This document shows positions 3,005 to 47,196 of a stretch of DNA of 64,000 bases, piece by piece. The position numbers were made by a program, and so were the translations under genes. The DNA is from Collinsella aerofaciens (lineage in GTDB: Bacteria > Actinomycetota > Coriobacteriia > Coriobacteriales > Coriobacteriaceae): positions 1 to 64,000 of the forward strand of contig NZ_JAQLFJ010000004.1 of assembly GCF_028206795.1 (NCBI RefSeq), written 5' to 3'. The notes beneath the pieces are model-generated. The model was given only the letters and a program-made list of their open reading frames with translations. It was not told the DNA's origin and searched no databases. The number at the start of each line of letters is the position of its first letter. Positions within the stretch are counted from its first letter, which is position 1.

Positions 3005-3748
3005 ATGCCACCGACTGAAGGGCTAACTGACGGTAAAGCAGCGATTCCGCTGTACCAACAGGTTATCGATATCATTAAAAACGAAATCAACTCCGGTGCC
3101 TACAAGGCGGGCGCGCGGATACCCAACGAATTTGAATTGGCTGAGAGCTATAAAGTTGGCCGCGTTACCGTGCGACGTGCTATTGAGGAGCTCGTCCAGC
3201 AGGGCTATCTAACGAAGCGACAGGGGAAAGGCACGTTTGTCAATGCCCCCAAGCTCAAGCGCAAGATTCGCCAGAAGGATGACGTCCAGAGTTTTTCGGA
3301 CGCATGCCGCGTTAACGGAATGGAACCGGGGGCGCGCGTCATTTCGAGAAAGATACTGCCGGCGGATTCCACCGAAGCGCAGTTCTTTGGTGTTCCCGTT
3401 GGAACTGATTTGATTTGCGTTGAGCGTGTGCGTACTGCCGATGGAGTCCCCGTCATGCTCGAGAACAACATATACGTTTACGAGGACAACGCTTATCTAT
3501 CAACGGCACCTCTATCGAACCAATCCATTTTTGAGTTCGTGCGCAACCGGACGGGCCGTACGCCCGCGTTTACCGACCCGTGCACGCTCGAGATCGCGTG
3601 CGCGTCGCCCGAGGTCGCTCGGCTGTTGGCAGTTCCCGTTGGCGAACCCTTGTTTTATATGGAAGCCTTCTTTTTCGATGAGCAGCGGCGGCCGTTTATC
3701 ATCGGTCGTCAGCGGATCGTTGGGTCTCGCTACGTTTTTGACATCTAG
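3005..3748 (+). CDS. GntR/HutC-family regulator with UTRA domain
   Basis: Probable ligand-responsive repressor of the following cluster. Residues about 12-80 form a winged helix-turn-helix (IPLYQQVIDIIKNEI, then VGRVTVRRAIEELV and the wing GYLTKRQGKGTFV); residues about 100-245 form a UTRA effector domain, the fold that binds sugar phosphates or amino-acid metabolites in HutC, FrlR and NagR. The 247-residue length is normal. It is the first gene before the carrier and catabolic enzymes, the usual place for a local regulator, and E. coli frlR is of the same family. That the ligand is a phosphorylated Amadori-type compound is inference from the neighbours. Confidence 0.88.
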   Translation: MPPTEGLTDGKAAIPLYQQVIDIIKNEINSGAYKAGARIPNEFELAESYKVGRVTVRRAIEELVQQGYLTKRQGKGTFVNAPKLKRKIRQKDDVQSFSDACRVNGMEPGARVISRKILPADSTEAQFFGVPVGTDLICVERVRTADGVPVMLENNIYVYEDNAYLSTAPLSNQSIFEFVRNRTGRTPAFTDPCTLEIACASPEVARLLAVPVGEPLFYMEAFFFDEQRRPFIIGRQRIVGSRYVFDI

Positions 3749-3756
3749 GACATTGC

Positions 3757-3800
3757 GTATGGAAGCGCCCGGTGGATCATCTCACCGGGCGCTTCCATAC
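3757..3800. terminator. Stem-loop after gntR
   Basis: Eighteen-base perfect arms (3757-3774 and 3783-3800) around GATCATCT. There is no T-run, so it may be a weak terminator or an RNA-stabilising structure at the end of the gntR message. Confidence 0.5.
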
Positions 3801-3858
3801 CGTTCACGGCGCGAACGCAACCGTTCAACCGCGTTGCGGCAATCAGTTTGAAATTATC

Positions 3859-3902
3859 TTGATGACGGGAAAAGCTGCTGGTAATCTATGGGACGTCATA
3901 GA
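3859..3902 (+). promoter_or_regulatory. Candidate promoter and operator of the catabolic operon
   Basis: A -35-like TTGATG (3859-3864) and -10-like TAATCT (3882-3887) with 17-base spacing precede the carrier gene. The palindrome TCTATG-GGACGT-CATAGA (3885-3902) overlaps the -10 box, a position that fits repression. The link to the GntR protein is inference. Confidence 0.35.
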
Positions 3903-3966
3903 ACGTTTGCCTTATGCAAGCGTTGAAGCGAGATGCGATGCAGTCTCGAGTTCTTTGGAGGTATCT

Positions 3967-5430
3967 ATGTCAGATACGAAGGCGAAGAAGACAAACAGAC
4001 GTTTTAAGTTCAAATTACCGCATGTTTATACGATCATGTTCTTGCTGATCGTTGTCTTTGCGGTCCTGACTTGGATCGTTCCTTCTGGTCAGTATCAGCG
4101 CAAGACGATTTCGACAGCGGCGGGCGAGCGTGAAGTCGCCGTTGCTGGAACCTATGAACAGGTCGATAAGAACTACACCGATTCCGAGACCGGCGAGACC
4201 ATCAATCTGGGTCAGGATATCTTCGCGGTCCTGCAAGCGCCCACTAAGGGCATCCAAGAGGCTGCCGACGTCGTTGCGTTCGTCTTATTGATTGGCGGAT
4301 CGTTCGCAGTCATCACCAAGACCAACGCTTTGAATGCCGGCATGAGCCGTGTGATTAAAAAGCTCAAGAACAAGGACATCCTCATCATTCCCATCACGAT
4401 GACGTTGCTGTCCATTTGCGGTACCACGTTTGGTATGTCTGAGGAGGCCCTGCCGTTCTATGCCATCTTCATTCCCATCATGATGGGTATTGGGTATGAC
4501 TCGATGACGGCATTCATCATCTGCTTCCTTGGTCCTAACCTGGGATATTGTGCTTCGACCATCGACCCGTTTAACGTCTTGATCGCACAGGGCATTATCG
4601 GCATCGAGGGCAATCCGCAACTGTGGCTGCGCGCCGTTTCTTGGGTCATCTTCACTGCCGTCGGTATCGCATGGGCCATGCGCTACGCCATGCGCGTCAA
4701 GAAAAACCCCGAGTCGTCCATTACGTACGAGGACGATAAGCTCAAGCGTATCGAGTTTTCCGTGACCGATGCCTCCATCGAGGAAGAGTTCACTATCCGT
4801 CAGAAGCTCGTGCTTATCGATTTTGCTTGCGGTATGGGCATTATCGTCTGGGGTCTTGTTACCCAGGGTTGGTACATGAATGAGATTTCCGCCGTGTTCC
4901 TTGGCATGGGCTTGCTTGCCGGTATCCTGGGCGGTCTTGACCAGCAGACGATCGCCGAGGAGTTCGTTAAAGGTCTCGCCGACTTTGCGTACGCCGCCAT
5001 CGTTATCGGTATCGCTCGCGGTATTCTGGTCATCGCCGAGGGCGGCATGATCATCGACACCATTCTCCAGGCGCTCGCTACTGCGCTCGCCGGTGCACCC
5101 GCCGCCGTCTACACCACGTTTATGTATATCGTCCTTGGCCTGCTCTCTTTGCTGGTTCCCTCGAGTTCTGGCCTGGCGGCGCTCACCATGCCCGTTATGG
5201 GCCCCCTGACCGAGCTCATGGGCCTCAATCCCGAGGCGGCCGTCACCGCGCTCCAGTTTGCCAACCAGACCATCAACACCATCAGCCCCGTGGCGGGCAT
5301 GACGGTCGCCGGTCTTGCCGTGGCTAGGATTTCGTTTGGCCAATGGTGGAAGACCATTTGGAAGTTCTTCATTTTCATGGTCGTCTTTGGCCTGATCGTA
5401 ACGGCAATCTCTGGCATGCTTCCGGTGTAG
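3967..5430 (+). CDS. YfcC/DcuC-superfamily membrane carrier
   Basis: Multi-spanning inner-membrane carrier of 487 residues, probably the uptake system of the cluster. It begins with a basic cytoplasmic stretch and a first membrane helix ending in WIVPSGQYQ, a hallmark of the YfcC/ArcD-like group of the C4-dicarboxylate anaerobic carrier superfamily; about ten to twelve further hydrophobic segments follow, with GTTFGMSEEALPFY and a serine-rich LVPSSSGLAALTMP reentrant motif. The ATG at 3967 has GGAGG upstream; an in-frame longer reading crosses a non-coding leader. Members move amino acids, peptides or dicarboxylates, so a glycated amino acid is plausible but unproven. It lies nine bases before the amidohydrolase. 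Confidence 0.82.
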   Translation: MSDTKAKKTNRRFKFKLPHVYTIMFLLIVVFAVLTWIVPSGQYQRKTISTAAGEREVAVAGTYEQVDKNYTDSETGETINLGQDIFAVLQAPTKGIQEAADVVAFVLLIGGSFAVITKTNALNAGMSRVIKKLKNKDILIIPITMTLLSICGTTFGMSEEALPFYAIFIPIMMGIGYDSMTAFIICFLGPNLGYCASTIDPFNVLIAQGIIGIEGNPQLWLRAVSWVIFTAVGIAWAMRYAMRVKKNPESSITYEDDKLKRIEFSVTDASIEEEFTIRQKLVLIDFACGMGIIVWGLVTQGWYMNEISAVFLGMGLLAGILGGLDQQTIAEEFVKGLADFAYAAIVIGIARGILVIAEGGMIIDTILQALATALAGAPAAVYTTFMYIVLGLLSLLVPSSSGLAALTMPVMGPLTELMGLNPEAAVTALQFANQTINTISPVAGMTVAGLAVARISFGQWWKTIWKFFIFMVVFGLIVTAISGMLPV

Positions 5431-5439
5431 GTGGTTGTG

Positions 5440-7023
5440 ATGTCTGATCGTTTGACGGTCCTGACGTCTAGGAGCGTCTTTACCGGTACGGGAGACCTGC
5501 CGTTTGAAGGTTTCGTAGCGGTCCGTGGCAATCGAATTGAGGCTGTTGGCACCAAGTGTGAGGTAGCTTCGTATTTGACCCAGGCGGACGAGGTAGTTGA
5601 CCTGGGCGACCGCACTGTCATGCCTGGCCTGATCGATGTGCATACCTTCTATACGGGCTGGGCGCTGCGGACGTTGGGGTCTGATCTGTCCGGCGTCGCT
5701 GATGCCAAAGAGGCCGTGTCGCTCTTGCGTGCATGGAAAGATGATCATCCGGATTGCGCGGCGGCTTTTGGCCACAACCTGCCCGAAACGTTGGCATCGG
5801 ATGCCGAGAACGCAAATACAGCAGCTGCGTTTGACGAGTGTTTTGGTGATATCCCCGTCGTCTGCTTTACACCGGGAGCGGAGACCTGCGTTCTCAATGC
5901 TGCTGCCAGTGCGCGATACGGCTTTACACCCCAGGCGTGCTATGCCGAGAAGATCTGGCGCATGATGAGCGATTTCCTCGCGCTGCCCGAGGTGCGTGCC
6001 GGGTATTCGGACTACATGAGCATGCTTAACGAGCGCGGCGTTACCGCCATCAAGGAGATGGCGTTTGATGACTACTACGGCTTTGCCGACGAAATGGCTC
6101 GCCGTGAGGAATCTGGCGAGCTGACGGTTCGCGTCTCTATGATGTCGCAGCCGGTGGGTGCCGGTGCAAATCTGGCATATGCTCGCGAGGCACGAGAGCG
6201 CTTCCGGGGACCGTTCGTTCGTTTTTCTGGCTTCAACCGTATGACCGATCGCGGCGTATGGGCGGGGCTTGCCGAGATGATTGACCCCTATGAGGACTCG
6301 GCCGATGCGGGCGCTGCCGGCAAGACGGTCGTCGAGGAGCCCGAGTGGGATCTGATTGAGAACGAGCTGCGTGCAGTTGATGCTGACGGCTTCCGATATT
6401 CCTTGCATTGCCAGGGCGATGGCGCCGTTCGTCGCACCGTGGCGCTCTATGCCTCGCTGCCTCGAGACGAGCATGGACGGATGCTTCGCCGCCATGCGAT
6501 TACCGATCTCGAGAACTCTGACCCGACCGATCTTGTCGAGTTTGGCAAGTTAGGTGGAATTTGCGAGGTCTATCCGCAGATTCTGACGCTGGACCGGCGC
6601 GAGGATTGCCTGTCGATGATGCGTCGACAAATTGGCGAGACGCGACTTTTGCACAGCTGGAATCGCCGCGGCATGGAAGATTCCGGATGCACGGTGTGCT
6701 GTGGCACGGATTTGCCGCTGTTGATTCCGAGCCTGGGCGAGTCAATCTACAGTGCGTGCGGCGGATACTTCGACGACGGGCTGCCCGTGAATGAGGCCAA
6801 CGCGCTGACGCTTGTCGAGCTCTTGCGCGCTTGGACTGCCGGGGGCGCGTACGACCTGATGCGCGAAGACGAGCTGGGTACGCTCGAGGTCGGCAAGCTT
6901 GCCGATATCTGCGTGCTCGATCGGGACGTGTTCGACCTCGATTATCGCGACGCACGCGATCTATCGGTTGATATGACGATGTCGGACGGACAAATCGTGT
7001 TCGATCGAAATAAGGAGGCATAA
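5440..7023 (+). CDS. Amidohydrolase (YtcJ-like) with altered metal motif
   Basis: Cytoplasmic TIM-barrel amidohydrolase of the YtcJ/amidohydrolase-3 type, 527 residues. The N-terminal beta-sandwich, the strand VMPGLID, the histidines in LHCQGDGAVRRT and RRHAITDLENSDP, and the aspartate in CGTDLP match the family. The usual HxH after PGLID is here VHTFYTG, so the second histidine is replaced by phenylalanine. It may use a mononuclear site or an altered reaction. Family members cleave N-acyl or cyclic amide bonds. ATG 5440 was chosen over a GTG at 5431. It is followed after one base by the isomerase gene, so the operon is tight. The substrate is unknown. Confidence 0.75.
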   Translation: MSDRLTVLTSRSVFTGTGDLPFEGFVAVRGNRIEAVGTKCEVASYLTQADEVVDLGDRTVMPGLIDVHTFYTGWALRTLGSDLSGVADAKEAVSLLRAWKDDHPDCAAAFGHNLPETLASDAENANTAAAFDECFGDIPVVCFTPGAETCVLNAAASARYGFTPQACYAEKIWRMMSDFLALPEVRAGYSDYMSMLNERGVTAIKEMAFDDYYGFADEMARREESGELTVRVSMMSQPVGAGANLAYAREARERFRGPFVRFSGFNRMTDRGVWAGLAEMIDPYEDSADAGAAGKTVVEEPEWDLIENELRAVDADGFRYSLHCQGDGAVRRTVALYASLPRDEHGRMLRRHAITDLENSDPTDLVEFGKLGGICEVYPQILTLDRREDCLSMMRRQIGETRLLHSWNRRGMEDSGCTVCCGTDLPLLIPSLGESIYSACGGYFDDGLPVNEANALTLVELLRAWTAGGAYDLMREDELGTLEVGKLADICVLDRDVFDLDYRDARDLSVDMTMSDGQIVFDRNKEA

Positions 7024-7024
7024 G

Positions 7025-7876
7025 ATGTCTGAATCCAAACCGACGCTGCGCCGCGAACAGATTGCGGGCATGAATATCCACTACATCATGTGGTCGCTCG
7101 ATTACTTCCTTGATGTGCAGCAGCGTTTGGGCTTTGAGTCCATTGAGCTGTGGTGTGCGGAGCCGCATGTGACGCTCGACCACACGGGCTACTTTGAGGC
7201 TGAGGTCCTGGCGAAAAAGGCTGCAGACCGTGGGCTTAGGTATCGTACTCTGTGTCCCGAGAATGTTGTCTATCCTTGGCAGTACTGCGCACGCAAGCCG
7301 CTGCATGAACAGCGCAGCCTGGCGTACTTTAAGCACGGCATTGAGCTTGCCGAGGTACTTGAGTGCGACCGTATGTCCGTCAACTCGGGCTGGGGCGACT
7401 GGGACGAGGACCGCGAGGAAGCCTGGAAGCGCAGCCGCGAGCATTTGTCCATTCTGGCGGAGTATGCCGGCGAGCACGGTCTGGTGCTTACGATGGAAAG
7501 CCTGCGTCCCGAGGAGAGCAACCTTGTGACGACGGTTTCCGATGCGAAGCGCATGATTGACGAGGTCGCGAGCCCGTACTTACAGCCCATGGTTGATACA
7601 ACCGCGATGGGCGTTGCAGGCGAGACGCTTGAGGACTGGTTTGCCGCCTTTGGTGATGGGGCAATTCACGAGATGCACTTTATCGACGGCGACCCGTATG
7701 GCCATCTGGTGTGGGGCGATGGCAAGCACGATATGGACGCCTTCGTCGCCACACTCAACGCCCATGGTTTCGACGGTATGCTGGGCCAGGAAATCACGGA
7801 CGGCCGTTACTACGATGACCCGGCGGCGGCAGATGCCAAGAACATGGCCGCATTCGAGAAATATCTGATTGACTAA
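7025..7876 (+). CDS. FrlC-like sugar epimerase/isomerase (TIM barrel)
   Basis: Cytoplasmic enzyme of the xylose-isomerase-like TIM-barrel superfamily (AP endonuclease 2 fold), 283 residues. Visible family features are IELWCAEPHV near residue 40, MSVNSGWGDWDED near 120, the metal-binding glutamate in LTMESLRPEESN (about 160), the aspartate and histidine in EMHFIDGDPYGH, and the late glutamate in LGQEITDGRYY. The GDP-GH arrangement is typical of fructoselysine 3-epimerase FrlC and its relatives. AAGGAGG precedes the ATG. Its position beside FrlB-like and FrlD-like genes supports a role in epimerising a ketoamine substrate; that exact reaction is inference. Confidence 0.78.
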   Translation: MSESKPTLRREQIAGMNIHYIMWSLDYFLDVQQRLGFESIELWCAEPHVTLDHTGYFEAEVLAKKAADRGLRYRTLCPENVVYPWQYCARKPLHEQRSLAYFKHGIELAEVLECDRMSVNSGWGDWDEDREEAWKRSREHLSILAEYAGEHGLVLTMESLRPEESNLVTTVSDAKRMIDEVASPYLQPMVDTTAMGVAGETLEDWFAAFGDGAIHEMHFIDGDPYGHLVWGDGKHDMDAFVATLNAHGFDGMLGQEITDGRYYDDPAAADAKNMAAFEKYLID

Positions 7877-7938
7877 AACAACTATCGGCCACGCAGCCAA
7901 CGTTATTGATTGCGGACCAAACAAGAAAGGAACTGGAT

Positions 7939-8907
7939 ATGAACGCACACGATCTGATCAAAGAGGCAATTGCCGAGAAGGGCAAGTTCGACAGCGTCTA
8001 CTGGATTGCTTGCGGTGGCTCCATGATCGATTTGATCCCGGCTCATGAGCTTCTGCAGCGCGAGGCAACCACCTTCACTTCGTATATCTATACGGCTCGC
8101 GAGTTTGATATCATGCGTCCGCGTCGTCTGGGCGAGAAGTCCCTGGTCATCGCCTGTAGCCACAGTGGCAACACTCCCGAGGTCGTCGAGGGCTGCGAGA
8201 TTGCCCTTGCTGCCGGCGCTACGGTGATCGCCCAGACCGACAACGCTGGATCTAAGATCGACTCCGGCAAGTGGACCACGTGGGTCTACCCGTGGGGCGA
8301 GGGCGTGCCGCAGGCCGAGGTCCCCGCTGGTATTTCGCTGTCGCTTGCGGCAGAGCTGCTCGATCAGCAGGAGGGCTACGCCGATCTTGCCGATATGTAT
8401 GCCGGTATCGCCGAGATGGATAAGATTCTTCCCCCGGCACGCGAGAAGGTAAATGCCGAGCTGGGCGATCGCTTTGCCAAGCTTTGCCAGGAGCACGAAT
8501 TCTTCTATATTCTGGGCAGCGGTCCCAACTTTAGCCAGACCTACGGTTTCGCTATCTGCTCTCTTATGGAGATGCAGTGGCAGCACTGCAGCTACATCCA
8601 CTCTGCCGAGTACTTCCATGGCCCCTTCGAAGCTACTCAGGATGGCGTTTTTTACTTCCTGCAGATGGGCTCCAGCGAGTGCCGTGCTATGGACGAGCGC
8701 GCCCTGGCGTTCCTTAAGACGCATACCGATACGCTGATGGTGCTCGATGCCAAGGAGTACGGTATGGAATCCGTGCCGGCGAGCGTCCGTGCCTATCTGG
8801 ACCCGGTGCTGTTCTACGCCATGAACTGCGAGCTGCGTGCTGCACGCGGCAAGGTGTTTGATCACGATCCCGATTTCCGTCGCTATATGGGTGTTGTCGA
8901 GTACTAG
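7939..8907 (+). CDS. FrlB-like SIS-domain deglycase
   Basis: Probable cytoplasmic 6-phosphofructosamine deglycase, which splits a phosphorylated Amadori compound into glucose 6-phosphate and the free amine. The 322-residue protein has two SIS sugar-isomerase domains: WIACGGSMID and ACSHSGNTPEVV in the first, and FYILGSGPNFSQ with SAEYFHGPFE in the second. It lacks the glutaminase domain of GlmS. Its end, HDPDFRRYMGVVEY, closely resembles the C-terminus of E. coli FrlB as I remember it. The ATG at 7939 has GAAAGGAA upstream. It lies between the FrlC-like and FrlD-like genes, the same set as the frl operon. Amine specificity (lysine, asparagine or other) cannot be read. Confidence 0.78.
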   Translation: MNAHDLIKEAIAEKGKFDSVYWIACGGSMIDLIPAHELLQREATTFTSYIYTAREFDIMRPRRLGEKSLVIACSHSGNTPEVVEGCEIALAAGATVIAQTDNAGSKIDSGKWTTWVYPWGEGVPQAEVPAGISLSLAAELLDQQEGYADLADMYAGIAEMDKILPPAREKVNAELGDRFAKLCQEHEFFYILGSGPNFSQTYGFAICSLMEMQWQHCSYIHSAEYFHGPFEATQDGVFYFLQMGSSECRAMDERALAFLKTHTDTLMVLDAKEYGMESVPASVRAYLDPVLFYAMNCELRAARGKVFDHDPDFRRYMGVVEY

Positions 8908-8921
8908 AAGGGACAAAGGCC

Positions 8922-9785
8922 ATGGCATTTAACGTTAACGCGCTCGGATTTGGCGACAACGTCGTCGATCGCTACGAGCATATCCATACCATGTATCCTG
9001 GCGGCAATGCGGTGAACTTCGCCGTTTATGCCAAGAAATGCGGTGCCGCACGCTCCGCATACATGGGCATTTTTGGCAATGACGCCGCTGCAGAGCATGT
9101 CATTGCAAGCCTCGAGGATGAGGGTATCGAGCTTGACAAGTGCGAGCAGATGATTGGCGAGAACGGAGCGGCTCGCGTGACCGTCGTTGACGGTGACCGT
9201 GTCTTCCTTGGCTCCAACGAGGGCGGTATCCGTGGCGATGCGCGCTATGTCCTCGATCGCTTTGACCTTGCGTACATGAAGCAGTTCGATGTGGTTCATT
9301 CGGGCAACTATTGCTTTACCGAGCGCGAGCTGCCCAAGCTGAAGGCTGCGGGCGTTACGGTCTCTTTTGACTTTTCGGACGACTCCACCGACGAGTACTA
9401 CGAGCAGATTGCGCCCTACGTCGATTTTGCTTTCTTTAGTGCGGCGGATGCCGCGAGTGAGGACGAGATTCGCGAGCGTCTGGCATGGGTGAAGGGCCTG
9501 GGTCCGCTTTTTGTGTCGGCTACGGCGGGCGCCGAGGGCTGCATTGCTTACGACGGCGAGCGTTATTACCGCCAGCTGGCTAAACCGGTAACGGACATGA
9601 AGGACACCATGGGAGCGGGCGACTCGTTCCTCACCTCGTTTTTGATGTGCTATCTCGATTCCGCCAAGCGTGGCGAGGATGGCGCCGAGGCCATCGAGCG
9701 CGCGCTCGACTTTGCTGCCGGGTTTGCCTCGACCGTGTGCGGCATGGAAGGTTCTTGGGGCCACGGAGCACCAATCGTCGAATAG
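8922..9785 (+). CDS. FrlD-like PfkB kinase
   Basis: Probable fructoselysine-type 6-kinase that makes the substrate of the SIS deglycase. The 287-residue ribokinase-fold protein opens with GFGDNVVDRYEHI and GGNAVNFAVYAKK, a signature shared with E. coli FrlD; it has FDFSDDSTDEYY in the middle and ends with the ATP/anion-hole motif DTMGAGDSF carrying the catalytic aspartate. The end STVCGMEGSWGHGAP is also FrlD-like. A ribosome binding site (GGGACA) is weak but the gene lies only 14 bases after the deglycase, so translation is probably coupled. The kinase family is certain; the substrate is inferred from homology and context. Confidence 0.8.
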   Translation: MAFNVNALGFGDNVVDRYEHIHTMYPGGNAVNFAVYAKKCGAARSAYMGIFGNDAAAEHVIASLEDEGIELDKCEQMIGENGAARVTVVDGDRVFLGSNEGGIRGDARYVLDRFDLAYMKQFDVVHSGNYCFTERELPKLKAAGVTVSFDFSDDSTDEYYEQIAPYVDFAFFSAADAASEDEIRERLAWVKGLGPLFVSATAGAEGCIAYDGERYYRQLAKPVTDMKDTMGAGDSFLTSFLMCYLDSAKRGEDGAEAIERALDFAAGFASTVCGMEGSWGHGAPIVE

Positions 9786-9855
9786 CTTAAGAAAGCGTAC
9801 GGCGGTCTGGCTATGAGGCCTTGGACAGCCGATGCAAAACAATAAGCGAAACGCG

Positions 9856-9889
9856 AAAAGGGGGCTCGCCATGTGGTGGGTCCCCTTTT
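9856..9889 (+). terminator. Internal stem-loop between the two kinase genes
   Basis: Arms AAAAGGGG (9856-9863) and CCCCTTTT (9882-9889) around an 18-base loop. It could act as a partial terminator that lowers expression of the second half of the cluster. Confidence 0.5.
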
Positions 9890-9906
9890 GAACATTGGAG
9901 AAGACC

Positions 9907-10707
9907 ATGGGTATTAAAGCGTGCGCGGCTGGTTTTTGCTGTGCGGACGTCTATCAAAACATCGGCGTGTTCTATCCGACTGGTAATGGCATTGACTGGG
10001 GTATCCATCTTGCACGAATGGGCGTTTCGGTATCCGCTGTGTCGGTTGTCGGCAAGGACGAGTACGGAGACAAGATGAGGGAGGCGCTGGCCGCCGAGGG
10101 GTTCGATATCTCACATCTGCGGGTGGAGGATGGCGACACCTCGGTGATGCTCATGGCGTTGAAAGACGGCGTCGATCGCGTACATCTCGAGGCAATCGAT
10201 GGCGTAATGGAGACATATCGACCGAATGAAGATGACCGGGCGTTTATCCTAGAACATGACATCATTCACACCGACCTGTTTGGCAATTGTTTGGACCTCC
10301 TGCCCGAATGGCATGATGCGGGCAAGACGGTGGTTATGGACTTCTCGGTGTTCAGCCAGGATCCCGAATATGCCTGCGAGAACCATTTTCCCTACGTTGA
10401 CTATGCGTTCATGTCGTTTGAAGAGGACACTCCGGAGCTACGAGATTGGGTACGCCACGTGCAGGGATTGGGACCGCGCGTTGCGGTTGCCACGCTTGGC
10501 GAGAAGGGAAGCATTGCCTATGACGGTGAGCGCTTCTATGAGTGTGGGATCGTACCGGCGGAGAAGGTCGTTAACACCGTGGGCGCCGGTGACTCGTATA
10601 TCGCCGGGTTTACCAAGGGCGTGATTGATGGCCTTGATATTCCGGCGTGTATGAGGGCGGGCGCTGAGCTGTCGTCCCGAGTGATTGGTTCGTTTGAGCC
10701 GTACTAG
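9907..10707 (+). CDS. Second PfkB-family sugar kinase
   Basis: Cytoplasmic ribokinase-fold kinase of 266 residues. It shares with its neighbour the FDIS, MDFSVFSQD and ATLGEKGSIAYDGE regions and the C-terminal NTVGAGDSY with the catalytic aspartate, but the N-terminal GGNAVN signature is replaced by TGNGIDWG. The substrate pocket therefore probably differs and a second sugar or ketoamine is expected. The ATG at 9907 has TTGGAG upstream and lies just after an internal stem-loop. It could be a duplicate of the FrlD-like gene that has specialised. Substrate unknown. Confidence 0.78.
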   Translation: MGIKACAAGFCCADVYQNIGVFYPTGNGIDWGIHLARMGVSVSAVSVVGKDEYGDKMREALAAEGFDISHLRVEDGDTSVMLMALKDGVDRVHLEAIDGVMETYRPNEDDRAFILEHDIIHTDLFGNCLDLLPEWHDAGKTVVMDFSVFSQDPEYACENHFPYVDYAFMSFEEDTPELRDWVRHVQGLGPRVAVATLGEKGSIAYDGERFYECGIVPAEKVVNTVGAGDSYIAGFTKGVIDGLDIPACMRAGAELSSRVIGSFEPY

Positions 10708-10734
10708 GGTCAAATGCCTGGAAAGGAGTACGAA

Positions 10735-11595
10735 ATGGTTATCGACATGTTGGTCCATCCTATGCTCTACGGCGAGATCTGTACGCCGGGTGATGAGCCT
10801 GATGGATTCGGTTTTTGGTCACGAGAATTTGGTATGGGGCATATGGGCCCCATGGATTGGGATGAGCTTCAAGTCGAGATGGACGTCTGCGACGTGCGAA
10901 AGAGCGTGCTCATGCCGCTCGATGTAACCACGGCATGCGGAGGGCACTTTGGCACCAATGACCAGATTGCCATGCTGGTTGCCGCGCACCCCGATCGTCT
11001 GTGGGGATTTGCGAGCGTAGACCCGCAGGTGAGCGGTGCCGCAGACGAATTGGAGCGCGCCTTTACCGAGTTGGGGGCAAAGGGGCTTTGCCTGCATCCG
11101 GCAAAGCAGGGTTTTGCCCCCGATGATGCTGTGGCCGAGCCGCTTTACGAGCTGTGCGAGCGCTATAACAAGCCGGTGGTTTTCCATGCCGGTATGTCTT
11201 GGGAGCCGGGCGCAGAGCTCTCGCGCAGTAACCCGCTTGCATTTGAACACACAATCGCAACGCATCCAAATGTGCGTTTTAGTTTGACCCACTTTGGCTG
11301 GCCCTGGGTGCGCGAGACCGTGGCGATGCTGCTCAAGTATCCCAACTGCTACACGGACACCTCTATCACTTACATCGATTCGCCCGAGGAGATGATGCAG
11401 CGTCTTTTCACGGTCGATATGGGACCGCTGTGGTATGAGCGCGCGCTATCGCATCAAGTGATGTTCGCCAGCAATACGCCGCGCTTCCGTGCGTTCAAAC
11501 TCAAGCGGGCGCTCGATACCGTGCCGATGCGCGATGATGCGCGAGAAAGGCTCTACTGGGGTAATGCCCTGCGTTTTCTTGAAGGGGATGAGTGA
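10735..11595 (+). CDS. Amidohydrolase-2 family TIM-barrel protein, degenerate metal site
   Basis: Member of the amidohydrolase-2 group (decarboxylases, lactonases and hydrolases), 286 residues. Family features visible are the start IDMLVHP, the histidines in LCLHPAKQ, VVFHAGMSW and SLTHFGWPW, and the fold pattern GFASVDPQ. Two positions depart from the usual pattern: the N-terminal HxH is reduced to a single histidine, and the late aspartate of GSDxP appears as asparagine in FASNTPR. It may bind one metal or have lost hydrolysis. AAAGGAG precedes the ATG at 10735. It sits inside the cluster, with the next gene two bases after its stop. Function unassigned. Confidence 0.7.
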   Translation: MVIDMLVHPMLYGEICTPGDEPDGFGFWSREFGMGHMGPMDWDELQVEMDVCDVRKSVLMPLDVTTACGGHFGTNDQIAMLVAAHPDRLWGFASVDPQVSGAADELERAFTELGAKGLCLHPAKQGFAPDDAVAEPLYELCERYNKPVVFHAGMSWEPGAELSRSNPLAFEHTIATHPNVRFSLTHFGWPWVRETVAMLLKYPNCYTDTSITYIDSPEEMMQRLFTVDMGPLWYERALSHQVMFASNTPRFRAFKLKRALDTVPMRDDARERLYWGNALRFLEGDE

Positions 11596-11597
11596 AC

Positions 11598-12026
11598 ATG
11601 GTGACGCTCGAGACATTGAGCTATCTATCGACTGCTCCGGACCAGTTCATCGATATTACCGAAGACGTGCACGCTGCCATCGAACGCAGCTCGGTGACGA
11701 ATGGCTTGGCAGCGATTATTTTGTCGCATACGACCTGTGGAATCGTGGTAAACGAGGGGCTGCCCTGTGTGGAGACGGATCTTATGGAGACGCTTGATCG
11801 CATCGCCCCACTCGATGCCCCCTATGCGCATGCACACTTCCTGCCGAGCTATGGAGCTACCGGCAACAACTCCTGTGGGCATATCAAGAGCATGATTTGT
11901 GGAAACAGTTGCTTCTTTCCCGTCCAAGATGGCCACATCGTGTGCGGAGGTGCCCAGAACATCTATCTTGCGGAGTTTGACGGTCCGCAGAAGCGAAAAG
12001 TGTACGTCGAAGTGCTGGGGGAGTAA
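11598..12026 (+). CDS. YjbQ/UPF0047 family protein
   Basis: Small cytoplasmic protein of 142 residues matching the YjbQ family (UPF0047). The family pattern is plain: ITEDVHAAIERSSVTNGLA, then LSHTTCGIVVNEGLP with the conserved HTT and NE, then AHFLPSYG, CGHIKSMICGNS, PVQDGHIVCGGAQNIYLAEFDGP. YjbQ proteins have weak thiamine-phosphate-synthase activity in vitro but their true role is unsettled. The start at ATG 11598, GAAGGGG upstream, was preferred to a GTG at 11592. It is translationally close to the amidohydrolase gene. Its presence in a sugar/ketoamine cluster is unusual and may point to a phosphosugar-related role. Confidence 0.8.
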   Translation: MVTLETLSYLSTAPDQFIDITEDVHAAIERSSVTNGLAAIILSHTTCGIVVNEGLPCVETDLMETLDRIAPLDAPYAHAHFLPSYGATGNNSCGHIKSMICGNSCFFPVQDGHIVCGGAQNIYLAEFDGPQKRKVYVEVLGE

Positions 12027-12059
12027 CGTCCCTGCAATAACCCTATGAAGGAGCACGTT

Positions 12060-12869
12060 ATGTCGTTTCTAACTTCGATGTTCAAGACCGAAAAGCCGGT
12101 TATCGGAATGCTGCATCTGCGTCCTCTGCCGGGCGATCCACTGTATTACCCGGGCGGAAGCGTGTCACAGGTCGTGGAAGCCGCCAAGCGCGATCTCGAA
12201 GCGTTACAGCAGGGCGGTGTCGATGGCATTTTGATTACCAATGAGCTCTCGATGCCCTATGAGCAGCACGTTTCTCCCTCAACCCTTGCATCGATGGGCT
12301 ATGTAATCGGGGCTCTGTCCCATGATATGTCGACCCCTTGGGGAGCTGAGGCTATTTACGATGGTGATGCCACAATCGAGCTGTGCGCTGCCGTTGATGC
12401 GCAGTTCACGCGCTGCAATTTTTGCGGTGCCTGGGCCGGTGATCTCGGGCTGATTAACCGAGATTTCGCTCACACCATGCGTCGCAAGGCGGCGCTGCGC
12501 TTGGACGACCTCAAGCTATTTCACTTCATCACGAGCGAGGGGGAGGTTTATCTCAACGACCGCACGACTGCGGACATTGCCGATTCACTTCTCTTTAATT
12601 GCCTACCGGATGCGATGGTCATCGGCGGTTCGGCTGCCGGTCGTGGCGCTTCGGGCGAGCTTGCCGATGAGGTCCGCGAGCGTGTTGGCGAAGTACCTGT
12701 GGTATGTGGCACCGGTTGTCGCGAAAATACCGTGGCTGACGTATTTGCTCACTACGATGGCGCGTTTGTCGGCACGTGCTTAAAGCGCGACGGAAAGCTA
12801 GATGCCCCGGTTGATGCTGAGCGGGTAGTTCGTTTTATGGCTGCCGCTCGTGCGGCGCGAGGGGAGTAG
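12060..12869 (+). CDS. BtpA/SgcQ-family TIM-barrel protein
   Basis: Cytoplasmic protein of 269 residues of the BtpA family. The opening VIGMLHLRPLPGDPLYYPGG is the family signature, followed by ALQQGGVDGILITNE, a middle NFCGAWAGDLGLINRD and the phosphate-binding-like end VVCGTGCRENTV with AFVGTCLKRDGK. Cyanobacterial BtpA was named for photosystem I biogenesis, but bacterial relatives such as SgcQ lie in sugar operons, and the fold suggests a phosphosugar enzyme. AAGGAG lies upstream of ATG 12060. The following kinase starts five bases after its stop. I infer an enzymatic step in the same pathway; no reaction can be assigned. Confidence 0.8.
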   Translation: MSFLTSMFKTEKPVIGMLHLRPLPGDPLYYPGGSVSQVVEAAKRDLEALQQGGVDGILITNELSMPYEQHVSPSTLASMGYVIGALSHDMSTPWGAEAIYDGDATIELCAAVDAQFTRCNFCGAWAGDLGLINRDFAHTMRRKAALRLDDLKLFHFITSEGEVYLNDRTTADIADSLLFNCLPDAMVIGGSAAGRGASGELADEVRERVGEVPVVCGTGCRENTVADVFAHYDGAFVGTCLKRDGKLDAPVDAERVVRFMAAARAARGE

Positions 12870-12874
12870 CACCT

Positions 12875-14392
12875 ATGGCGTTTTATCTGGGTATTGATAT
12901 TGGGACAAGCGCCTCTAAAGGCGTTTTAATCGATGATCGATGCAACATCGTTTGCCAAGCCTCTTGCGGACACGAGACGGACAACCCGCGTGACGGATGG
13001 TACCAGCATGATGCGGAGGCGGTTTGGTGGGGCGATTTTTGCCGCTTGTCGCGTGAGTTGGTGGTGCGATCGGGGGTTAACGCGGTGCAGATCGGATGCG
13101 TGGGCCTTTCCGCATTGGGTTGCGACTGCGTACCGGTCGATACCGAGTGCAACGCGCTGGCGCCCGCGATTTTATATGGAGTCGATGCGCGTTCGAAGCC
13201 GCAGATTGACGAGCTTCTTTCCGAATATGGGTCAGATCGCGCACGCGAGCTTTTCGGGCACGATCCCTGTTCGTCAGATATTGCTCCCAAGATCTTGTGG
13301 TTTAAGGAGAATATGCCCGAGGTGCACGAACGTGCCGCGAAGTTCCTGACGGCGTCATCGTTTCTATGCGCAAAGTTGACGGGGCGTTTTACGGTGGACC
13401 GTTATTTGGCGGAGGATTTTCTTCCCCTATATGACCGCTACACTTGGAAGGTTGATGCTCGGGAATGTGCTCGTTTCTGCCGGCCTGACCAGATGGCGGA
13501 GGTAATGTCGGCTACCGATATTGCTGGGGTGATTACGCAGCCTGCGGCTGAGGCGACGGGGCTCGCGGCGGGGACACCCGTCTTGGTGGGAACGGGCGAC
13601 TCTGGTGCCGAGGCCATTTCGACGGGTGTATTCCGTCCCGGCGATATGATGGTTCAGTTGGGGAGCACGGCGTATTTCATCTACTTAGCTGATCATATGG
13701 TCGATGATGCTCGCCTGTGGCCAGGGACGTTTATCATTCCCGGAACTTACGGGATCTGCGCGGGGACCAATACAGCGGGTGCACTCACATCGTGGCTGCG
13801 CCAAGAGCTGTATCGCGACGCCGTGGAGGCCGAGGACCACGGTGGCCCCGATGCATATTCGGTTATGGCGCATGATGCCGCCGATGTGGCGCCGGGTGCC
13901 GATGGGCTCCTGTGTCTGCCGTACTTTGCGGGGGAGCGTACTCCGCTCAACGATCCCGAGGCGCGTGGCGTCTTCTTTGGCCTGACCGGAAGGCATACGC
14001 GAGCACATATGGTTCGCGCCGCCTTGGAAGGCGTCGCGTATACCGTTGCATCCCATGTCGACATTATCGAGCGAGAGCATGGACTGCCAATTGGGCGCAT
14101 TATGCTTGTCGGAGGTGGAACCAAGAATCCAGTTTGGATGCAAGCTATCGCCGATGTATGCGGGCGCGAGGTCTCGGTTGCCAAGGTTACGGTGGGCGCA
14201 TGCTTCGGCGATGCCATCATGGCGGCTCTCGCAGGTGGCGCCTATGCATCATGGGATGAGCTCGCCCAAGTCCTTGGCGTTGCGCAAACAATCGTGCCCG
14301 ATATGGCTGCCCACGAGTTATATGCGTCGCGTCGTCATATCTTTGACGAATTGTATGCACGCAACTGTGATCTCATGCACGAATTGGTGTAA
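12875..14392 (+). CDS. FGGY-family carbohydrate kinase (xylulokinase-like)
   Basis: Cytoplasmic sugar kinase of 505 residues, the usual FGGY length. The N-terminal phosphate-binding motif YLGIDIGTSASKGVLID, the mid-protein VLVGTGDSGAEA, and the C-terminal adenosine motif MLVGGGTKNPVWMQ define two actin-like domains. The overall pattern is closest to xylulokinases (for example WYQHDAEAVWW near residue 47), but FGGY substrate calls are unreliable from sequence. It is the last gene of the cluster, five bases after the BtpA-like gene, and would phosphorylate a keto-sugar released or made in the pathway. A REP-like hairpin follows it. Confidence 0.82.
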   Translation: MAFYLGIDIGTSASKGVLIDDRCNIVCQASCGHETDNPRDGWYQHDAEAVWWGDFCRLSRELVVRSGVNAVQIGCVGLSALGCDCVPVDTECNALAPAILYGVDARSKPQIDELLSEYGSDRARELFGHDPCSSDIAPKILWFKENMPEVHERAAKFLTASSFLCAKLTGRFTVDRYLAEDFLPLYDRYTWKVDARECARFCRPDQMAEVMSATDIAGVITQPAAEATGLAAGTPVLVGTGDSGAEAISTGVFRPGDMMVQLGSTAYFIYLADHMVDDARLWPGTFIIPGTYGICAGTNTAGALTSWLRQELYRDAVEAEDHGGPDAYSVMAHDAADVAPGADGLLCLPYFAGERTPLNDPEARGVFFGLTGRHTRAHMVRAALEGVAYTVASHVDIIEREHGLPIGRIMLVGGGTKNPVWMQAIADVCGREVSVAKVTVGACFGDAIMAALAGGAYASWDELAQVLGVAQTIVPDMAAHELYASRRHIFDELYARNCDLMHELV

Positions 14393-45252: not shown

Positions 45253-47196
45253 TTACTCCTTATTGCGACGGTAGAGGAAGTAACCGCCCGCGGAGATGAC
45301 GGCAACGCCAGCGATGGCGAATGCAGCCACCACGCGGCCATCAAAACGATCACCGGTGGTGGGCAGGCCGCCCTTGGTGTTCGTCTTGTTGGTGGTTACC
45401 GTGGTCGTGGTGTCCGACTTGCCAGGCTTCTCGGGCTTGGTGGTGGGCTGCTCGGGCTTAGCGGGCTGCTCGGGGGTACCGGGCTGCTCAGGAGTACCAG
45501 GCTGCTCGGGGGTGCCAGGCTGATCCGGGGTTACCGGGTCGGTGACAAGAGCGTCCTTGGCGTAGGTGATGGACACCTTGAGGCCGTTGGTCTCGGTGTT
45601 CAGGTCGCTCGGGGTGAAGGGCTGGTCGAAGTTTTCGGCCTTCTGATAGGCGCGCATCTCCTGGAGCAGGGCCTTGCACTTGACGTAGGTGTTCTCGGTA
45701 GCAGCCTTGCCGGCCTTGTTGGCCAGGGCAGTGCGGCCCTCGGGGGTCGTCTCGGCCAGCATGGCGGCGTCAACTTCCTTGTTCTGCTCGATGAGCTCGT
45801 TCTGGAGCGCATCGAGGTAGGCACGGACACTGATACCAAGGGTGTCAGGGTTCTCAAAGCAGAGCGAGCTGATGTCCATGAGGACGTAGTTGATTGAGTT
45901 CTCGGGCTCCTCGTTGTACACGACGTCCGTCTCTTTGCAGTGGTCGAAGGAGACGGTCTGGTCGCTGAAATACGGGCTAACCTCGGTGAGCAGTGCGGAG
46001 TAGAAGGGGATGGCGACGGAGTACGCGGCGCGGGAGAGCATTTCCCACTGGATTGTTGCAACCTGGGGATCAAGACCGTTGCGAACCTGGAAGACGTGAA
46101 TCTCGGTGTTGCGCTCGGTGCCGATGGCATAGGCACCGTCAGTGTTGGCGTTAAGGCCCGGGGTATTCTCGCCACGGTTACCGAGAGAGCGAATCATCTC
46201 AAAGGTAGTCCAGTCTGTCTTTCCGGGCTGGAAGAACAGCGGCTGCATCTCGTGGACCAAGGCGCCGGTCGTGGCGCGAGCCTCTTCGCGCTCGTCCTTG
46301 ACGATCTCGTAGTCGGTGCCCTCCTGGAGCTCGTTGCCAAAGTAGTTACGGCCCTGGACGTAGCGGGTCCACTGGTGCATACCGGAATTCTGAATGGTCT
46401 CGCCATAGGTTGCGGCGACGTCGAACTTGCCGTCGGTGTACTCGGCAAAGCCCTTCTCCTTAGGCATGGACTCGATGCCCTCGGAGTGCAGGCAGTTCTC
46501 GGGGTCGTTGAGGTCGACATCGTAGTTGAGGTTGCCGATGTTGGGGTTGATCGAGGCGACGTCGTCGGCGAGCTTCATGCCGATCCACTGGTGACCGGAA
46601 AGCGCGGCAAACAGCCAGGTCTCGTTGTTGTCGGCGATGATGATCTGGTCGTTGGAGCAGACGCCCTGCTCGTCAATCAGGCTGCCGAGGAGCTCGACGC
46701 CCTCGCGGGCCGTGGCGCTCTCGCCCAGGATGACGCTGGCGTAGTTGTACTCGCCGATGCCGGTGTTAGTCAGGGGGTCTGCTGTCTCGGCATCTGCATT
46801 CATACTGGTGCTTAGCGTGGCGGAGCAGGATACGCCCTTCTCGTTGATGCCTGCTTCAGAGTAGGCATCCCAGCGGTTGTCCCACTGGGAGGGATGGTCG
46901 CGTACATAGGTGTAGCGATACGTGGTCTTGGTCGAGGTGTACATGAACGAAGACTCGTCCGAGCTGTACGTATGCCCCGGGCCGTGAGAGGGCTCAATGC
47001 CAAAGTGCTTAAGATAGCGCGGGCCATAGTCCTCGGAACGGCCGTAGTACGTGTTGCCGTCGGCCGTAAGGTTTTTGCCCATGTAGACCTGCGTGCAAGC
47101 GAGTGCAGAGGTCGGCATGGACATGATGGTTGCAGCTCCAAATGCAAGGCCTATACCAAGCTTCTTGAGCGCGTTGACGGGATGAGTTTTACTCAT
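45253..47196 (-). CDS. Sortase-anchored C69-family dipeptidase
   Basis: Secreted and wall-anchored peptidase of 647 residues. The signal peptide (about 1-33) ends SALA and the next residue is the nucleophile cysteine (ACTQVYMGKN), as in C69/PepD N-terminal-nucleophile enzymes, which mature by removing residues before Cys. EDYGPRYLKHFG and NYDVDLNDPENC lie in the catalytic domain (about 34-540). A PEQPGTPEQPG-type spacer leads to the sorting signal LPTTGDRFDG, a membrane helix and RRNKE. It should release dipeptides at the cell surface. A 10-base-pair hairpin (47216-47239) lies just before the ribosome binding site. No sortase gene is in the window. Confidence 0.85.
   Translation of the reverse strand: MSKTHPVNALKKLGIGLAFGAATIMSMPTSALACTQVYMGKNLTADGNTYYGRSEDYGPRYLKHFGIEPSHGPGHTYSSDESSFMYTSTKTTYRYTYVRDHPSQWDNRWDAYSEAGINEKGVSCSATLSTSMNADAETADPLTNTGIGEYNYASVILGESATAREGVELLGSLIDEQGVCSNDQIIIADNNETWLFAALSGHQWIGMKLADDVASINPNIGNLNYDVDLNDPENCLHSEGIESMPKEKGFAEYTDGKFDVAATYGETIQNSGMHQWTRYVQGRNYFGNELQEGTDYEIVKDEREEARATTGALVHEMQPLFFQPGKTDWTTFEMIRSLGNRGENTPGLNANTDGAYAIGTERNTEIHVFQVRNGLDPQVATIQWEMLSRAAYSVAIPFYSALLTEVSPYFSDQTVSFDHCKETDVVYNEEPENSINYVLMDISSLCFENPDTLGISVRAYLDALQNELIEQNKEVDAAMLAETTPEGRTALANKAGKAATENTYVKCKALLQEMRAYQKAENFDQPFTPSDLNTETNGLKVSITYAKDALVTDPVTPDQPGTPEQPGTPEQPGTPEQPAKPEQPTTKPEKPGKSDTTTTVTTNKTNTKGGLPTTGDRFDGRVVAAFAIAGVAVISAGGYFLYRRNKE

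Follow-up and report, generated by a model that had tools for sequence, protein, structure and literature searches.

The 64,000-nucleotide (nt) stretch of Collinsella aerofaciens DNA analysed here (contig NZ_JAQLFJ010000004.1, positions 1 to 64,000; hereafter the window) carries at positions 3005-14392 a cluster of eleven genes that form two modules, A (from the gntR regulator gene to the kinase gene k1) and B (from the second kinase gene, k2, to the FGGY kinase gene), of which B is separable. The cluster is best explained, with a probability of roughly 0.6, as a gut-bacterial locus for utilisation of ketosamines (Amadori products), in which module B would be an accessory branch for a related second substrate. 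The features are the following:

3005-3748, + strand: GntR/UTRA regulator, module A (PF00392 and PF07702; 28% identity to E. coli FrlR)
3967-5430, + strand: YfcC-type carrier of the DcuC family, presumed importer, module A (PF03606, 371 bits)
5431-7023, + strand: YtcJ-like amidohydrolase-fold protein with HxF replacing HxH, module A (PF07969, 134 bits)
7025-7876, + strand: FrlC-like sugar isomerase/epimerase, module A (PF01261, AP_endonuc_2)
7939-8907, + strand: predicted FrlB-like SIS fructosamine-6-phosphate deglycase, module A (PDB 3eua, 1.5e-55; 9otj, 5.1e-55)
8922-9785, + strand: PfkB kinase k1, adjoining the SIS deglycase gene, module A (PF00294)
9856-9889, + strand: hairpin separating module A from module B (stem of 15 bp, A-rich on its 5' side, U4 at the 3' end)
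9907-10707, + strand: PfkB kinase k2, FrlD equivalog, module B (NCBIfam fructoselysine 6-kinase, 263 bits)
10735-11595, + strand: AH2, amidohydrolase-fold protein resembling ACMSD/LigJ, with Asn248 where Asp is usual, module B (Amidohydro_2)
11598-12026, + strand: YjbQ/UPF0047 protein, module B (TIGR00149, 104 bits)
12060-12869, + strand: BtpA/SgcQ family TIM barrel, module B (TIGR00259, 188 bits)
12875-14392, + strand: FGGY carbohydrate kinase, BtpA partner, module B (xylulokinase model, 276 bits, below the cut-off of 380)

All eleven open reading frames (ORFs) lie on the + strand in the ORF list of the window, as stated in an initial annotation of this DNA, and every family name given there was recovered (UTRA and GntR, DcuC/YfcC, Amidohydro_3, AP_endonuc_2, SIS, PfkB twice, Amidohydro_2, UPF0047/YjbQ, BtpA and FGGY). 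The motifs quoted there are also present: the SIS protein ends in HDPDFRRYMGVVEY, and GDNVVDRY and GGNAVN occur in the first kinase. The intergenic gaps, described as short, are so for most genes but not for the 218 nt 3' of gntR, the ~60 nt 5' of frlB and the 121 nt (9786-9906) 5' of k2. Start codons were placed at 7939 for frlB, 9907 for k2 and 11598 for yjbQ, a GTG at 11592 also being open for the last. The hairpin in the k1-k2 gap has a calculated RNA fold energy of -26.1 kcal/mol (z -4.5) and is identical in sequence in loci L005 and L053 (see below); a terminator scan of the + strand did not pick it up.

The separability of module B is evident from close relatives. Locus L005 of C. aerofaciens, whose contig ends before gntR, carries the other ten genes at 97-100% identity, and L053 (genome G109) carries all eleven in unchanged order. 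At eight of eleven close Collinsella loci (L001, L002, L004, L006-L009 and L011) the k1 flank is followed within ~260 bases by the flank on the tatD side, and tblastn found no trace of AH2, YjbQ, BtpA or FGGY in the fetched stretches. Gene names in neighbouring loci, here and below (ATP-binding cassette (ABC) importers, M20/M42 peptidases, DhaK/DhaL, SDR, phosphotransferase system (PTS), recQ, tatD), were assigned by eye from translations, ten plus nine proteins excepted. Among the ten genomes behind L002-L011, k2 is present at an identity of at least 97% in three (L005, L010 and, as a partial gene at a contig end, L003), and the other seven contain nothing closer to k2 than 33%, that match being k1 or another kinase. 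The survey of gene order proposed in the initial annotation thus recovers the set in other genera, as described below, but no fixed eleven-gene unit, module B being missing at eight of the eleven loci.

Among 43 genomes of the genus, k1 occurs in 23 (20 at 93-100% identity, G022 and G043 at 67%, and G049 as a partial match with a stop), and BtpA in six, all of which are k1 carriers (p = 0.017). Partial sets also exist: G022 has k2-AH2-YjbQ and no BtpA match, and G043, in which k2-AH2-YjbQ is missing, has BtpA with a fragment of FGGY, its carrier gene being in two pieces. Identities of the window genes to Enorma locus L012 are 60-84% for module A and 77-86% for module B, those to G172 are 56-80% and 67-75%, respectively, and the guanine-cytosine content of the A and B genes is equal (56.8-56.9%). 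Since the two modules are alike in divergence and composition, an old presence followed by piecemeal loss fits better than fresh gain.

Separately, a ~200-bp inverted-repeat element lies between k1 and the tatD-like gene at L001 11902-12108, and also in L004, L007 and, with one end, L006. It is found in some strains without module B and is absent from the window.

Module B was then followed beyond Collinsella. The search for AH2 covered 197 genomes of the class, 299 of the phylum of G198 (Bacillota) and 341 of the class of G198; the samples overlap, G198 being in both. YjbQ directly adjoins AH2 in all 17 distinct genomes with strong AH2 and at none of seven weak AH2 matches; in G149 (L042) AH2 is cut by the contig end. 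Complete A plus B sets were found in Enorma (L012), in G172 (L052), in an Atopobiaceae metagenome-assembled genome (L028, one record with G878/L133, whose DNA is identical) and in the Bacillota genome G572 (L114 and L136), where btpA-fggy is divergent. G198 holds the genes at three separate places, carrier-YtcJ-SIS-k1, gntR-btpA-fggy and k2-AH2-YjbQ, the last adjoining a fructose 6-phosphate (F6P) aldolase gene. G127 and G131 have module A (without FrlC) and module B at separate loci, and G867 groups a distant k1/SIS pair, YjbQ, AH2, BtpA, FGGY, k2 and two FrlC-like genes in a cluster that adjoins an apparent oligopeptide ABC importer. In 249 genomes of the phylum of G198, 14 BtpA places were found in 12 genomes, with FGGY no more than two genes away in seven (G198, G225, G402-C87, G342, G279, G308 and G367); two of the other seven places (G226, G397) lie where a contig ends or is short. 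The recurrence of the gene set in Bacillota and other genera, rearranged in part, is beyond chance.

Co-occurrence was counted in 140 genomes (35 genera) of the family of G127, probably the sister family Atopobiaceae, with kinship corrected by a genus-level count only. In this sample k1 occurs in 17 genomes, AH2 in 17 and BtpA in 14. AH2 and k1 are found together in 11 genomes (expected 2.1, p = 1.7e-8), AH2 and BtpA in 13 (expected 1.7, p = 4.5e-14), and BtpA and k1 in eight (expected 1.7, p = 1.7e-5). At the level of genera the overlaps are nine for AH2 and k1 (9 of 9, p = 8e-7), nine for AH2 and BtpA (9 of 10, p = 7e-6) and seven for BtpA and k1 (p = 5e-4). AH2 and k1 lie on different contigs or more than 300 kb apart in six of their 11 shared genomes, and without the five linked genomes p is 9e-5. 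Because AH2, BtpA and k1 co-occur in this sample, even in genomes in which AH2 lies apart from k1, an association of the extra genes with the core is supported, as is the existence of module B as a real unit tied to A. The suggestion in the initial annotation that these genes extend the route was borne out to that extent; the extension to a further glycated substrate was not.

Several counts weigh against so close a tie. BtpA is missing from 17 of the 23 k1-bearing Collinsella genomes, and module A therefore does not need B. In the family of G127, six of the 17 AH2 genomes have no k1 match at threshold (one of them, G867, has the distant k1/SIS pair) and six of the 17 k1 genomes have no AH2; contig breaks in drafts may hide linkage. 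BtpA-FGGY is also found in ABC-sugar clusters without frl genes. In G673 and G790 the AH2-YjbQ pair accompanies a tagatose-kinase-like PfkB protein, a PFL2-type glycyl radical enzyme with its activase, and F6P aldolase, and no FrlB match was obtained in either genome. AH2-YjbQ without a FrlB match in these two Bacillota genomes indicates that the chemistry of the pair is not confined to Amadori compounds. Such contexts would suit a module B that is a ketose pathway in its own right (its substrate being, for example, a rare ketohexose or deoxyketose) and has its regulator and neighbourhood in common with the Amadori genes: both BtpA-FGGY and AH2-YjbQ are found again in sugar clusters that lack frl genes, the latter pair with F6P aldolase and a glycyl radical enzyme, and AH2 can occur without a k1 match. 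This alternative is nevertheless rather doubtful, since the AH2-k1 co-occurrence holds even when the genes are unlinked and the kinase of most B loci is a k2 of FrlD type, not an ordinary sugar kinase.

Some of these neighbouring loci have features of their own. The clusters of ABC-sugar type with BtpA-FGGY are L096, L098, L099, L101 and L104; a DhaK/DhaL-like pair lies near BtpA-FGGY in L101, and L096 and L101 contain M42-peptidase-like genes, for which SgcX of the E. coli sgc operon offers a comparison. In L116 (4125-11489) and L117, AH2-YjbQ is accompanied by a LacI-like regulator, a PfkB protein resembling tagatose kinase, F6P aldolase and a glycyl radical enzyme with its activase, and this set may belong to a separate radical-sugar pathway. 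In L115 (G687), the neighbours of k2-YjbQ-AH2 include an ABC importer of oligopeptide type, an enolase, and proteins resembling galactonate dehydratase and glycerate 2-kinase.

The assignment of module A rests on comparison with the E. coli K-12 proteins of the annotated genome NC_000913.3. The SIS protein is 29% identical to FrlB over 330 residues (5e-34), the isomerase 27% to FrlC (5e-22) and the GntR regulator 28% to FrlR (1e-25), and both kinases match FrlD (k1, 36%, 9e-43; k2, 33%, 1e-49). The carrier has no meaningful match to FrlA; it belongs to the DcuC/YfcC family and scores 329 bits against the YfcC model PRK11588, below the cut-off of 500. Two solved SIS structures, 3eua (a putative fructose-amino-acid-6-phosphate deglycase) and 9otj (a record named only 'SIS domain protein', which we take to be FraB), align with the window SIS protein nearly end to end. 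E211 aligns with the Glu of 9otj that is replaced by Ala in 9otu, which indicates that the catalytic Glu of FraB, E214, is kept. H227 aligns at the position of FraB H230, the catalytic His. Both E211 and H227 are invariant in the 12 aligned rows. Excerpts of one study describe a Salmonella fraB E214A mutant as having catalytically inactive FraB (PMC10100877). With relatives of FrlB, FrlC, FrlD and FrlR (27-36% identity) in one locus and the FraB catalytic Glu kept, the frl-like core recognized in the initial annotation can be accepted, and a predicted kinase-deglycase step in module A is well supported.

Bit scores against the named E. coli-type models speak against a literal frl assignment: the SIS protein scores 110 bits against the FrlB equivalog NF008481 (cut-off 430), the isomerase 95.6 bits against fructoselysine 3-epimerase NF007360 (cut-off 305) and k1 184 bits against fructoselysine 6-kinase NF007321 (cut-off 247), none of which is reached. 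These shortfalls would be expected if the whole cluster acted on non-Amadori phosphosugars and the SIS and PfkB likeness were generic. That explanation appears very unlikely, because solved SIS proteins of deglycase type match over almost the whole length and the catalytic Glu is conserved, and because relatives of FrlC, FrlD and FrlR lie in the same locus. As only k2 clears its cut-off as a named frl enzyme, module A is filed as an Amadori-type pathway and not as the E. coli frl operon. Judged from sequence, module A is most probably an Amadori (fructosamine) pathway, and there is about an even chance that fructoselysine itself is the substrate.

Module A varies in its composition. The YtcJ-like protein has HTF or HCF instead of HxH in all 13 aligned rows, the window row included, and its gene is absent from one module A copy (L124); FrlC is absent from the A locus of G127, G131 and L033. 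GntR-family genes recur adjoining A or B in other genera. A substrate theme is visible by eye: genes for ABC importers of oligopeptide type occur close to A or B in L130, L033 and L115, and genes resembling those of M20 peptidases occur close to BtpA/FGGY or AH2 in L049, L050 and L130.

Additional copies of module A genes were also noticed. A second gntR-frlB pair is present in 20 Collinsella loci (L013-L027, L029-L031, L034 and L035; ~9100-10966 in L013). Its FrlB is 74-78% identical to the window FrlB, a recQ-like gene is a neighbour in L013 and L016, and no module A kinase or carrier was matched adjoining the pair. A second module A copy, with FrlB at 83-84%, lies elsewhere in some Collinsella genomes (L124, L126).

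The initial annotation had taken the first kinase for FrlD. The NCBIfam equivalog is instead the second, k2 reaching the NF007321 cut-off with 263 bits. In a kinase tree of 32 rows, k1 (14 rows) and k2 (13 rows) form separate clades, each with 100/99 support, and four more rows, from G127, G131, G119 and G182, form a third group. The k1 gene directly adjoins the SIS gene in 13 of its 14 rows (the two are ~5 kb apart in L121), and k2 is at most two genes from AH2 in all 13 of its rows. By this tree, k1 and k2 are two old orthologous groups. No claim is made as to the ortholog of E. coli FrlD, because FrlD falls outside both clades on a long branch.

The kinases bear on a further alternative, a single pathway in which k1 and k2 would serve alpha- and epsilon-glycated amino acids, both feeding the SIS deglycase, and AH2, YjbQ, BtpA and FGGY would process by-products or share regulation only. 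Both kinases are FrlD-like, and published excerpts report that B. subtilis FrlD/FrlB prefer alpha-glycated amino acids and the E. coli enzymes epsilon-glycated lysine (PMC12632257). The genomic position of k2 makes a single pathway unlikely, however: k2 follows AH2-YjbQ (13 of 13 rows) and not the SIS gene, from which it is apart in G198, G225, G687 and four genomes of the family of G127.

The proteins of module B are less readily assigned to reactions. Enzymes of PF04909 have a canonical amidohydrolase metal site with HxH on strand 1 and Asp on strand 8. AH2 departs from this motif, with Leu7 and Asn248 in the window protein; among 34 homologs, position 7 is His in 27, and position 248, a column that aligns with Asp in 4inf, is Asn in 31, Asp in two and Ser in one. 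With AH2 lacking the usual strand-8 Asp and YtcJ carrying HxF for HxH, the 'two amidohydrolases' of the initial annotation says too much; the fold families are confirmed, but the metal-site motifs are altered in both proteins. YjbQ reaches the TIGR00149 cut-off (103.8 bits against 67.75) and nine solved YjbQ/UPF0047 sequences were matched, the NCBIfam name covering only secondary thiamine-phosphate synthase activity. BtpA reaches the TIGR00259 cut-off (188.1 bits against 153.4) and is 38% identical to E. coli SgcQ over 268 residues. Its predicted model (predicted local distance difference test score 92.7) has TIM barrels as structural neighbours, including TrpC, HisF and ribulose-phosphate epimerase; to the detriment of any specific assignment, they single out no one reaction, and the search for solved BtpA/SgcQ relatives by sequence gave none except a weak CutC match (E 7e-4). 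FGGY scores 276 bits against the xylulokinase model TIGR01312, short of the cut-off of 380, and its closest solved relative by sequence is 3ifr (5.8e-60). Because BtpA-FGGY and AH2-YjbQ also have contexts outside frl loci, phosphorylated ketoses or ketosamines in general are the probable substrates of the B enzymes.

In the proposed two-module pathway, the YfcC-type carrier would take up fructoselysine or a related fructosyl-amino acid, possibly by exchange against the amino acid that is released. Kinase k1 would phosphorylate this compound at C6, and the FrlB-like SIS enzyme would split the product into glucose 6-phosphate and the amine. FrlC would interconvert C3 epimers, and YtcJ may act on an amide, acyl or peptide form of the substrate. 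Family assignments place no redox enzyme among the eleven genes, and module B is envisaged as a redox-neutral branch in which k2 would phosphorylate a related second substrate, AH2 and YjbQ would carry out linked steps, and FGGY and BtpA would first phosphorylate a ketose or ketosamine fragment and then isomerise, cleave or deglycate it. That module B acts in the same nutrient field as A is somewhat favoured, and a second glycated substrate is the best, if weakly supported, reading of its chemistry. A more specific and quite unlikely version is a second deglycation route without SIS, in which FGGY would phosphorylate a shorter (pentulose- or triose-type) Amadori compound, BtpA would free the amine by reverse Amadori rearrangement and k2-AH2-YjbQ would prepare the substrate. 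Such a route, if real, would place the YjbQ and BtpA/SgcQ families in a physiological pathway.

Heated food and infant formula are rich in fructosamines, and for exposure it is of consequence which strains remove these compounds. Pathways of the frl type are already known from E. coli, B. subtilis, Salmonella, Intestinimonas and Faecalibacterium. The window locus resembles E. coli K-12 frlABCDR in bringing together FrlB-, FrlC-, FrlD- and FrlR-type relatives, but these are only 27-36% identical, the carrier is YfcC-type and not FrlA, and the operon has no counterpart of the second kinase, YtcJ, AH2, YjbQ, BtpA or FGGY. As far as excerpts describe them, B. subtilis frlBONMD-frlP (PMC12632257), Salmonella fra and gfr, and the Faecalibacterium gfr-type operon (PMC10100877, PMC12136445) share the chemistry of a kinase or PTS with a SIS deglycase, and the Faecalibacterium operon is strain-variable like the window cluster. 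Uptake in these systems is by ABC or PTS transporters and not by YfcC, and the excerpted descriptions include no YjbQ, BtpA, FGGY or AH2. The fructoselysine genes of Intestinimonas AF211 (PMC4697335, in part) likewise belong to a gut bacterium and comprise kinase and deglycase, but the authors' model has an ABC transporter and that part describes no module B. E. coli sgcXBCQAER offers a BtpA relative in SgcQ, and SgcX has, by annotation, an exopeptidase-type domain, comparable to the peptidase-like genes by some BtpA-FGGY loci; it differs in PTS uptake and in having no FGGY or FrlD gene, and all sgc products are annotated 'putative' only.

The report of fructoselysine use by a Collinsella species mentioned in the initial annotation does exist: excerpts of two papers cite Wolf et al. 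2019 for degradation of Amadori-type products by Collinsella intestinalis (PMC10255453, PMC8195334). Portions of an infant metagenome survey note Collinsella matches for the kinase (PMC9749803), and fructosylated acetyl-lysine is named, again in excerpt, as a stool marker of formula-fed infants (PMC8195334). No description of module B was found in the literature searched, Wolf et al. 2019, which may mention Collinsella genes, being outside that search. Natural Collinsella strains that have module A in common allow a comparison of the strain-variable module B. The gene content of this module places YjbQ/UPF0047 and BtpA/SgcQ, two families whose physiological role is not agreed upon, in a single context open to testing and, through BtpA/SgcQ, offers a lead for the role of the E. 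coli sgc operon.

Three further features of the window were noted. A gene for a HAD phosphatase (beta-phosphoglucomutase-like; 2147-2854) lies directly 5' of module A, as it does in L012, L052 and L125. Between this gene and gntR, an exact 16-base inverted pair at 2935-2977 is terminator-like. A GC-rich tandem repeat with a period of 18/36 occupies positions 45445-45538.

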